A stretch of 64,000 bases of DNA from Clostridiales bacterium (GTDB lineage: Bacteria; Bacillota; Clostridia; Lachnospirales; CAG-274), in contig JAJPZT010000017.1 in the NCBI GenBank assembly GCA_021204175.1, positions 1 to 64,000 of the forward strand, read 5' to 3'. Below the pieces are notes generated by a model, which ran no database searches, was not told where the DNA came from, and saw only the letters and a list, made by a program, of their open reading frames with translations. Of the stretch, positions 21,704-31,967 are shown piece after piece (the stretch's first letter is position 1; each line of letters starts with the position of its first letter). The translations under genes and the position numbers were made by a program.

Positions 21704-21732
21704 TTGACATAATATAGCCTTTATGGTATTAT
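21704..21732 (+). promoter_or_regulatory. Sigma-A-like promoter for putative antitoxin RNA (copy 1)
   Basis: TTGACA 21704-21709, 17-nt spacer, TATTAT 21727-21732. Confidence 0.7.
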
Positions 21733-21738
21733 AAAAAT

Positions 21739-21834
21739 ATAAAGAGGACTGACTTAAGGCAGTTTATTCCTCACCAAAAGTTACTGTTAAAATAACCGTT
21801 TTGGATTGGTAGCCCAGAGACGGTTATTTTTTTT
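21739..21834 (+). ncRNA. Putative cis-encoded antisense RNA (type I antitoxin-like, copy 1)
   Basis: Follows the promoter and ends at terminator AAATAACCG...CGGTTATTTTTTTT (21790-21834); antisense to the 3' part of ORF 21771-21920. Confidence 0.6.
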
Positions 21835-21920
21835 GTTATGTTTATGATTATTTTTATTATGTGTACTAATACAGCAATAAGTATTGCGAGTACATATACA
21901 TCATAAATAATCGTTACCAT
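21771..21920 (-). CDS. Small hydrophobic peptide, putative type I toxin (copy 1, 49 aa)
   Basis: MVTIIYDVYVLAILIAVLVHIIKIIINITKKITVSGLPIQNGYFNSNFW; AAAGGAGGTG SD upstream; paralogous to 28442-28558; missing from the ORF track because of its size. Confidence 0.65.
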   Translation of the reverse strand: MVTIIYDVYVLAILIAVLVHIIKIIINITKKITVSGLPIQNGYFNSNFW

Positions 21921-22331
21921 AATCCACGTTCACCTCCTTTTGACATAATCCCGAAGATAACCGCTTAAATCATAAGCAACACCTCTTTTCATATGCAATA
22001 GGCAGGTGAGGATTTTCAGAACTTTTGACTGCGTCAAAAGCCGGGCTTGCTGCGATTTTTTCACAGAAAAAATTCGCAGTGCCCGTCCCGACATCTTTCG
22101 GGTTCTTACCGCTTTTCAGTCCTCTATGCGACAGAATAAAAATCTGCCGAAATTCCTAAAAGAATTTCATATAAAGTATAACATAAGACTGCGGATAAAA
22201 CAACAAAAAGTTTTCCTAAACCCCAAAAAATTTCTTTTTTAATGATTGACAGAAGCTTCCTAAAGAGTTATAATATTAATTGATTGAACGGTCAATAAAA
22301 TTTTGAATGAGATTTTTGAGAGGTGAGACAT

Positions 22332-28348: not shown

Positions 28349-28377
28349 TTGACAGTCCGGGCAAAATGTGCTATTAT
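28349..28377 (+). promoter_or_regulatory. Sigma-A-like promoter for putative antitoxin RNA (copy 2)
   Basis: TTGACA 28349-28354, 17-nt spacer, TATTAT 28372-28377. Confidence 0.7.
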
Positions 28378-28383
28378 TTAAAC

Positions 28384-28475
28384 ACAAAAGGGAGTGGCTT
28401 TGCAGCTACTCATCACTTAGACAATTATTTTAAGATAACCGTTAAGCTTGGAAATCTGAACGGTTATCTTTTTTT
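28384..28475 (+). ncRNA. Putative cis-encoded antisense RNA (type I antitoxin-like, copy 2)
   Basis: Promoter-proximal RNA ending at GATAACCGTT...AACGGTTATC TTTTTTT (28434-28475); overlaps the 3' end of ORF 28442-28558. Confidence 0.62.
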
Positions 28476-28558
28476 GTTATGATACGTTTTACAATTCTTA
28501 TAACTATAATGGATATTAATATAATTAATACATTAACGTCATAAATAATTTCTATCAT
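28442..28558 (-). CDS. Small hydrophobic peptide, putative type I toxin (copy 2, 38 aa)
   Basis: MIEIIYDVNVLIILISIIVIRIVKRIITKKDNRSDFQA; SD GAAGGAGGTGG; shares M-x-x-IIYDV-x-VL-x-IL with copy 1. Confidence 0.68.
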   Translation of the reverse strand: MIEIIYDVNVLIILISIIVIRIVKRIITKKDNRSDFQA

Positions 28559-28727
28559 AACGCCACCTCCTTCCGCAGTGCATTATGCCTCCGAAGGACA
28601 TATCAGATAACACCGGGGAACAGGTGAGAAGTAACTAAGAAACCGTTGCAATTCCCTTTAGCGAAATGTTTTTTGCGGTAAAAAAACGAGATTGAATGAT
28701 AAACTGTTTTTTGCTGCTTATAGGGTA

Positions 28728-30475
28728 TTAACAAGCGATTTTGCCGATAAAACGGTAGTAGATTTCAACTTTTATTTGTCTGCCGTTGGTTTCATTTTCG
28801 CCGTCTAATTCGTTAATAGTGATTTTATCAATGAGTGTGTTTAAAATTGCTTCGTCAAGCTTTGTTATGGGAGCATAGTTTTAGTTTTCTATTAAGTCCG
28901 CAAAATCTTTGGCGGAGCGGCTTTGTTCGGCTTTTTGTGATAAAGCAGTTTGTATTTCCGTCAAGCTCCTTTTAAGGTCGGCTTCTTCCTTTTCAAGGGC
29001 AGCAGACATTGAAGCATAACGGTCGGCGGAAATTTTGCAGAAAACCTTATCTTCATACATACTCTGAAGAATTTTGTCTATTTCGGCAAGGCGTTTTTTC
29101 ATTTTTGTCTGCTCCTTTTCTGCGATATTCTTTTTGTTTTCGCTTTTTTCAGCCGAAATACCTATAAGACGGTTAATATATTCGGTTTTATCAGCGGAAA
29201 CAAGTCGGGCATTCCTGCGTATATCGTCCAAAACTATATCGTATAGAGCATCAAATTTTATGCTGTGGGCAGTGCAGATTGATTTACCATGTCTTGTATA
29301 AGCACCGCACTCAAATTTTGCACCGTACTTTGATCTTTTTTAGATTAATGAATATCCGCATTTTAACTAACAAAGGAAGTCCCACGCCTTTTAAGGTGAC
29401 GGGGCTTCCTTTTCATTCAGCAGGAGTGTAAACTCCTACTGGATGGGGCGTTGTTAAATGCAGCGCCGTTGGTCATAAGTGTTTTTGCGTCAGAAAAAAA
29501 TGCGCATAGTCATTTAACCAGTCCTCTGAAAATATTGTTCGGATTTGAGGCGGAAAAAGGCTTTTTAACACTCAGATGTTTTTGAACGGTTTCAAAATCT
29601 TCCCTGTTTACCAACGGTTCATGAGTGTTCGGTACTGTAATCCATTCGGATTTAGGCAGTACAATAAGCTTTTTATCTTTAAATGAACGCCTTGCATATT
29701 TATGACTTACCATATCTCCCACGTATACCGGATTACTTAAAATTTCCCTTACTGTACGAACACTCCAATAATATGCAAACTTGTCATTTGTGCCTTGCCC
29801 CTTCACTTTTTCATACTGTGCATAGGCTCTTGGTTTGAGTATGTGTTCTTTTTTGAACGCATTTGCTATTTGAAAACAGGTTTTGCCATCTAAAATCATA
29901 GCAAACATACGTTGTACGATAGGAGCATTTTCATCGGGAATAAGCTTGTGCCTGTCATCAGGTGACTTCATATAGCTGTACGGAGCTTTAGAACCGAAAA
30001 ACTCCCCGTTTAGTCCCTTTGTTCTAAATGATGAACGAATTTTGCGGCTTATATCTTTTGCGTACCATTCGTTAATAATATTCTTAAATGGAGCAAATTC
30101 ATTGTCGCCGTTTTTTGTATCAACATTATCGTTTATTGCAATAAACCGAACATCTTTTTGAGTAAAGAAAACTTCTGTATAATAGCCTGTTTGCAAATAT
30201 TCTCTGCCCAAACGTGACAGGTCTTTTACTATAACAGTTTCAACCTTGCCCACTTCGATTTCAGAAAGCAGTCTTTGAAAATCGGGTCTGTTATAATTTG
30301 TTCCGCTCCAACCGTCATCAATGAAGTATTCGCAGTTAATAAAGTTGTTTTCCTCAGCATAACGCTTAAGCATTGCCTTTTGTATCTGTATGCTCATACT
30401 ATCGCCGCTGTATTCGTCATCTTTGCTGAGCCTGCAGTAAAGAGCCGTTATATTATTAAATTGCTGTTTTTTCAT
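28728..30475 (-). pseudogene. Large serine recombinase (integrative/mobilizable element), disrupted
   Basis: N-terminal resolvase domain (LYCRLSKDDEYSGDSMSIQIQK) and recombinase domain in ORF 29510-30475; C-terminal zinc-ribbon and coiled-coil part (KYGAKFECGAYTRHGKSICTAHSIKFDALYDIVLDDIRR) in 28728-29335; interrupted by element at 29363-29511 and in-frame stops. Confidence 0.88.
29363..29511 (+). mobile_element. Structured noncoding insertion element, copy A
   Basis: TTAACTAACAAAGGAAGTCCCACGCC...GCCGTTGGTCATAAGTG...GCGCATAGTC shared with copy B; inserted in the recombinase gene. Confidence 0.75.
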
Positions 30476-31774: not shown

Positions 31775-31967
31775 TTAACCAACAGAGGAAGTCCCACGCC
31801 CACCGACAAATCGTTTTAACAAATTTGGTCTTTGGGAAAAAACGATTTGTTGGCAGGCGGTGGGTACTTACTCTCCAATCAGTAGGGGTTTCAAGCCCTA
31901 CTGATTGGGGCGTTGATAAACGCCGTTGGTCATAAGTGTTTTTTCGTTAGAAAAAACGCGCATAGTC
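31775..31967 (+). mobile_element. Structured noncoding insertion element, copy B
   Basis: TTAACCAACAGAGGAAGTCCCACGCC...AAACGCCGTTGGTCATAAGTGTTTTTTCGTTAGAAAAAACGCGCATAGTC; extra hairpin ACAAATCGTTTT...AAAACGATTTGT. Confidence 0.75.

Follow-up and report, generated by a model that had tools for sequence, protein, structure and literature searches.

Protein searches fail with type I toxins, which are too short and diverged. In the BsrG/SR4 system, binding of the antitoxin SR4 to the 3' portion of helix P1 in the bsrG transcript extends the stem at the Shine-Dalgarno (SD) sequence from 4 to 8 bp (PMC7430163, PMC6562991, PMC4147584). Closing of the start site by binding to the 3' end has been reported for SR4, not for RatA or SR5 (PMC6562991). 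In the Fst system, repeats close to the 5' ends make the two RNAs complementary there (PMC4147584).

The window analysed here comprises 64,000 nt (positions 1 to 64,000 of contig JAJPZT010000017.1, assembly GCA_021204175.1, Clostridiales bacterium) and contains two related loci, termed W1 and W2. As judged from its sequence, W2 is laid out like a type I toxin-antitoxin (TA) module, the peptide of which is a predicted membrane toxin. A covariance model of the antitoxin, derived from this one window, ties an unannotated family of about 20 copies to Hol_Tox and BsrG-like systems, and the conserved copy shared by leader and antitoxin suggests how binding at the far 3' end can close a start site.

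Organization of the two modules

The predicted toxin ORF of W2 (28442..28558, minus strand), supported by the sequence, by peptide searches and by coding statistics, reads from 28558 to 28442 and consists of 38 codons for the hydrophobic peptide MIEIIYDVNVLIILISIIVIRIVKRIITKKDNRSDFQA. Its SD site, AGGAGGTGG (28564..28572, minus strand), is kept in the paralogues. On the opposite strand, a TTGACA-17-TATTAT promoter (28349..28377, plus strand; 11 of 12 matches, with TG ahead of the -10 region) would direct synthesis of an antitoxin RNA of about 92 nt (28384..28475, plus strand), its start being placed according to the promoter; the antitoxin model R1 (see below) matches at 28381-28473. The antitoxin terminator (28434..28475, plus strand), composed of the arms GATAACCGTT (28434-28443) and AACGGTTATC (28459-28468) and a T7 run (28469-28475), lies over the end of the toxin ORF and overlaps its last codons. 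The toxin stop codon falls within the 5' arm of the terminator, and the KK residues are encoded by the complement of the U-tract; in subfamily B (see below), the first bases of the terminator stem supply the toxin stop codon (AAA AAA TAA CCG). The toxin leader contains element X (28621..28664, minus strand), a same-sense copy of the 5' part of the antitoxin which ends in CTCACCTG, the complement of 28621-28628. The counterpart of X, termed X' (28384..28422, minus strand), is the complement of the antitoxin 5' part and corresponds to the expected, i.e. predicted, 3' end of the toxin mRNA.

The first locus, W1, is located 6638 nt from W2, and its layout matches that of W2. Its predicted toxin ORF (MVTIIYDVYVLAILIAVLV..., 21771..21920, minus strand) starts at 21920 and codes for 49 aa via read-through of the terminator; the antitoxin promoter (21704..21732, plus strand) is the same as that of W2, the predicted antitoxin RNA spans 21736..21836 (plus strand; R1 match 21736-21833), and the leader motif CTCACCTG is found at 22003..22010 (minus strand). 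The initial annotation had described the minus-strand ORF from 28558 behind its SD, the antisense promoter at both loci, the T7 terminator inside the toxin ORF, the leader tract at both loci and the second paralogous locus about 6.6 kb away, and all of these were recovered at the positions given for them.

Neither window copy is fully canonical. W2 is devoid of the canonical toxin promoter of subfamily A, and the minus strand of 28480-28900 contains no promoter-like site with at least 9 of 12 matches; its element X is also weaker than in most paralogues. Element X of W1 is interrupted by a dispersed repeat of about 90 nt (22018..22107, minus strand; ends approximate).

The peptide family and the reach of the antitoxin RNA

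The peptides of the toxin family comprise 26-50 aa, with a mean hydropathy of 2.4 across residues 9-24. W2 belongs to subfamily A, with the signature MIEIIYDVNVLIILI..RIVKHIITKKDNRSDFQA, and W1 to subfamily B, with MITIIYDVYVLAVIIA..RIIK..NITKK. The ORF is regarded as coding because codon position 2 has the lowest entropy (0.44, as compared to 1.03 at position 1 and 1.14 at position 3) and 96% of 825 pairs have a pN smaller than their pS; a short, hydrophobic coding ORF is what type I TA systems possess. The peptide recurs in 57 loci. With the W2 peptide as query, 12 places were found in its own genome, and with a subfamily-B peptide 13; a model based on a 12-row peptide alignment gave 17 matches in the source genome, 13, 8, 6, 6, and 8 in five congeners, and one additional marginal match among 146 relatives. 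A narrow peptide-pattern scan of named genomes yielded only three loci in two MAGs. The window peptides had no convincing match in Pfam, NCBIfam, PHROG or PADLOC, and peptide searches in phage, plasmid and viral-contig collections gave no match.

The initial annotation had taken the two loci to define a small family and had proposed scanning clostridial genomes with a covariance model. With R1, a covariance model of the antitoxin grown from the window's family, such a scan gave matches at E 0.001 in 46 of the 174 genera sampled in the order (85 of 392 genomes), and at E 0.01 in 54 of a set of 146 relatives; with 17 peptide and 22 antitoxin matches in the source genome, the family is much larger than the two loci first described. 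In this single Clostridia genome, the unannotated pair of a tiny predicted membrane toxin and a predicted silencing RNA is thus present in about 20 copies. For most of 45 R1 matches inspected, the other strand contains a hydrophobic ORF which is preceded by an SD and extends to the terminator, many of these ORFs having KK, TKK or KTQK as their last residues. The spacer of the antisense promoter measures 17 nt in all of 45 loci from six genomes, and 38 of 45 antisense promoters are exactly TTGACA-17-TATTAT, a recurrence well outside what chance would give; conservation of a promoter and a terminator opposite the toxin points to an antisense RNA gene overlapping the toxin gene, as in type I TA systems. 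The RNA starts with ACAAAGGGGAGTAACT..GGCAGTTACTCCTCACC, and the pairs of its terminator vary with compensation. UUGG, a YUNR-type motif too short to carry much weight alone, is present in 32 of 45 terminator loops. The joint conservation of ORF, antisense promoter, terminator and leader in dozens of loci lends good support to the suggestion that a paralogous type I TA-like module has been selected as a whole. At the level of the order, the relationship is based on the RNA and the layout, with no contribution from similarity of the peptides, and may in part reflect convergence.

When the W2 locus was compared with Rfam, nothing exceeded a gathering score, and the antitoxin RNA corresponds to no Rfam family. 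A full-length but weak match of W2 to FuFi-1 RNA (RF02986; 16.2 bits, cut-off 59.6), seen at no other scanned locus, was taken as chance. Two antitoxin-like RNAs of the source genome (L126 on contig C23 and L127 on C110) face a different hydrophobic peptide (MENYLKLILLLMLIQNILALLIYIIK in C23), a further predicted toxin type.

Predicted pairing of leader element X with the mRNA 3' end

The toxin leader repeats the first ~40 nt of the antitoxin in the same sense and is therefore complementary to the expected 3' end of the toxin mRNA. Element X is composed of a hairpin and UCCUCACCU. Both promoters are located outside X and are conserved, the toxin promoters of intact copies being close to TTGACA- or TTGTTT-17-TATACT. 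In alignment A2, which comprises 17 toxin transcripts of intact loci only, 93% of the cells of the X:X' helix are paired, and 13 of 26 pairs are changed on both sides (shuffled mean 5.9, none of 500 shuffles as high; slid helices at most 6). Cognate leaders and 3' ends give duplexes of -41.6 kcal/mol, as compared to -36.5 kcal/mol after partners were exchanged between loci (0 of 5000 permutations); since the loci are related, these shuffles and counts overstate independence. The X:X' duplex of W2 (-30.0 kcal/mol) is weaker than most. The preference extends to 36 distant loci, the leaders of which scored 24.7 against their own antitoxin and 17.5 against those of others (0 of 20000 permutations), with no change after close relatives were collapsed to 24, while a complement control gave a much weaker difference (17.4 vs. 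16.1). X itself differs between groups (GGTGCTACC..GGTTAGTCC, GAGCAATC..GCGGTTGGCG, and GGAGTTG..CGGTTCCC). A complementary repeat of the Fst/RNAII type does not describe these loci, the mean z being 3.7 for the same sense and 1.2 for the complement; two or three high complement scores (e.g. L107b, L086) may come from neighbouring second copies.

The likeness of X and X' might also have been maintained by gene conversion between inverted repeats. This bears on a reading of the module as a type I system that acts through duplex formation and RNase III decay only, in the manner of RatA/txpA and SR5/bsrE, the leader copy being what is left of an inverted duplication or of gene conversion. The antitoxin does lie wholly opposite the toxin 3' region, and bsrE and txpA, which share the 3' overlap, undergo no SD change upon binding of SR5 and RatA (PMC6562991), so that an SD switch need not apply to the window family either. 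However, the differences between leader and antitoxin comprise 121 G-U-keeping and 33 G-U-breaking transitions, an excess which identity through conversion does not predict; the count takes in some insertion-broken leaders, where the local alignment has no meaning, and the X:X' table of the intact loci is likewise rich in G-U cells. Moreover, the sequence of X is replaced from one family to the next, and the copy persists nonetheless. We therefore hold a decay-only mode of action to be quite improbable.

Predicted closing of the SD site

In computed folds of 28 loci, the mean cost of opening the SD rises from 4.6 kcal/mol for the full mRNA to 8.4 kcal/mol when the region covered by the antitoxin is unavailable, the cost being higher in the latter state in 26 of the 28. 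With the last 50 nt of the mRNA shuffled, the mean cost is 8.1 kcal/mol. The anti-SD in these folds is the leader segment CACCU(U)CCU, CACCUGUUCC in subfamily A, and the SD is mostly paired even in the free mRNA. The folds thus predict that the SD is more open in the free mRNA and that binding of the antitoxin closes it.

The folds bear directly on an alternative modelled on hok and aapA1, in which a 5'-3' helix holds the full-length mRNA inert and 3' trimming of X' starts translation. A strong, covarying 5'-3' helix is indeed present, as in aapA3 and hok (PMC6733600), but loss or hiding of X' renders the SD less accessible in the same 26 of 28 loci, and the anti-SD is held by the leader rather than by the 3' end. 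The folds are opposite to sequestration of the SD by the 5'-3' helix and activation by its removal, and this alternative appears unlikely.

We consider it probable that the locus is a type I TA module working like BsrG/SR4. Its transcription and RNA ends are predicted, and its parts, conservation, coding selection and X:X' covariation are read from the sequence. In the free toxin mRNA, X would pair with X'. The antitoxin, beginning with a copy of X, would take X' and pair with the ORF end, thereby freeing the leader; the CACCU(U)CCU segment could then pair with the SD, and translation would be shut off. The long duplex of toxin mRNA and antitoxin would presumably be cut by RNase III. When the antitoxin is missing, a small membrane peptide would be made that probably harms the membrane. 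Conservation of the leader motif would find its explanation in its pairing with both the 3' end of its own mRNA and the SD.

The W1 leader also contains a mini-ORF (ATG ATT TAA behind GAGGTG; 21965..21973, minus strand). An SD with ATG-NNN-TAA/TAG behind it is found in 28 leaders from subfamily B and its near relatives; start and stop codons are retained throughout, and the middle codon is changed in four. This arrangement could be a mere hairpin with the middle codon in the loop; a mini-ORF is nevertheless regarded as likely, since none of the 28 leaders has lost the stop codon, not even G003_C263, in which its retention is at the expense of a stem pair. By analogy to the hok leader ORF, it may serve as a ribosome loading or coupling site. 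The two-codon leader ORF also occurs in diverged copies, e.g. on contig C23 of the source genome.

A wider proposal, to which we give somewhat less than even credence, is that throughout a superfamily of hundreds of unannotated type I systems of Clostridia selection keeps the antitoxin a same-sense copy of the toxin leader, even though the peptides and the copied stretch turn over freely; that the strand swap at the SD is the general rule; and that this rule finds toxins too diverged for protein searches.

Apparently decaying copies and genomic context

Upstream of W2, outside the module, lies a broken large serine recombinase (28881..30475, minus strand), with Resolvase and Recombinase domains in 29510-30475 and a C-terminal ORF at 28881-29231. 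A similar recombinase end adjoins the module at L009 and on contigs C68 and C98 of the source genome. Both the C68 copy (L125) and the C98 copy (L128, 13384-13471) are degenerate, with the recombinase 3' end adjoining; in the former, the ORF is shortened in the membrane part, while the latter has kept the antitoxin promoter and lost the toxin. Further copies are devoid of the SD, due to insertion of the dispersed repeat, of the start codon or of the frame. These defective copies look like decaying modules, and in several of them the antitoxin seems to have outlived the toxin. The initial annotation had named homologues in other genomes with a broken peptide frame and a retained RNA, or the reverse, as evidence against selection on the whole module; cases of the former kind do occur, yet as single copies, which form a minority and have the appearance of decay.

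The dispersed repeat, beginning AGAACCCGAAAGANNTCGGG, was found at 27 places in the genome (at most one mismatch; reversed pattern 0) and sits at varied points in several module leaders, sometimes removing the SD. Dispersed repeats and a recombinase nearby, the inverted X repeats, and up to 22 scattered copies per genome are what would be expected if the module were a small mobile or repeat element with X and X' as inverted ends and the ORF incidental. In contrast, selection acts on the ORF as a coding sequence, both promoters are conserved outside X, and X changes completely between families yet still fits its partner, rendering a mobile element very unlikely.

Several other features were observed. 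The window contains two copies of a 57-nt repeat (29405-29461 and 31867-31923, 75% alike), which includes an inverted repeat (CAGCAGGAGTGTAAACTCCTACTG...GGGGCGTTG), and a similar sequence adjoins locus L011. In genomes G001 and G006, five toxin copies (L047, L058, L059, L060, L064) are cut off within the antitoxin terminator by the end of their contig; in four, the last sequence is TGAACTGCACCCAAAAA..CTGGACTTAAATTAACC, which resembles the end of an IS3-type element, and an element targeting the antitoxin terminator is possible. Close to a distant antitoxin match, L102 contains a near-perfect inverted repeat of 130 nt (140-269), the similarity of which to an Rfam microRNA model is below the cut-off and surely one of shape only. 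A TPP riboswitch (336-434 of the window, plus strand) scored above the gathering score.

Comparison with known systems

Hok/Sok and AapA/IsoA share with the window family a long-distance 5'-3' helix of the toxin mRNA, and AapA/IsoA is also multi-copy (PMC6733600); however, in those systems the SD is masked by the helix and activation follows trimming of the 3' end, whereas the folds of the window family predict the reverse. Fst/RNAII of Enterococcus pAD1 is similar in its convergent RNAs and in having repeats close to both 5' ends. TxpA/RatA and the type I modules of C. difficile are convergent and 3'-overlapping and encode a short hydrophobic peptide with a charged C-terminus, and many are located in prophages or skin-like elements (PMC6562991, PMC6563280), but no sequence match to the window family was found, the comparison with the C. 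difficile toxins not being at residue level. Neither window peptide matches Hol_Tox (Pfam PF16935, cut-off 23.3 bits), whereas two of ten tested peptides opposite R1 relatives pass this cut-off (30.9 and 25.2 bits), i.e. some relatives of the antitoxin lie opposite Hol_Tox peptides.

From BsrG/SR4, the window family differs in its antitoxin (about 92 nt, as compared to 180 nt), the terminator of which overlaps the ORF end, in the leader mini-ORF of subfamily B, and in the peptides, between which no similarity was found. The Rfam model of BsrG (RF01412) had no match above 55 bits in the source genome, the best (18.8 bits) being away from the modules, and the distant relative L094 scored 28.7 bits, under the same cut-off. 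The likeness is one of architecture. BsrG/SR4 (B. subtilis, SPbeta) shares the 3' overlap of toxin mRNA and antitoxin, the helix of leader and 3' end, and the leader copy in the antitoxin; in the BsrG locus of Bacillus phage Goe14, this copy is likewise present (0 of 500 shuffles as high), and the duplex of leader and 3' end amounts to -50 kcal/mol (0 of 200 shuffles). As in BsrG/SR4, the 3' strand of the 5'-3' helix in the toxin mRNA is the target of the antitoxin, and the closing of the SD by antitoxin binding to the 3' end, published for BsrG (PMC7430163), is what the computed folds predict for the window family.
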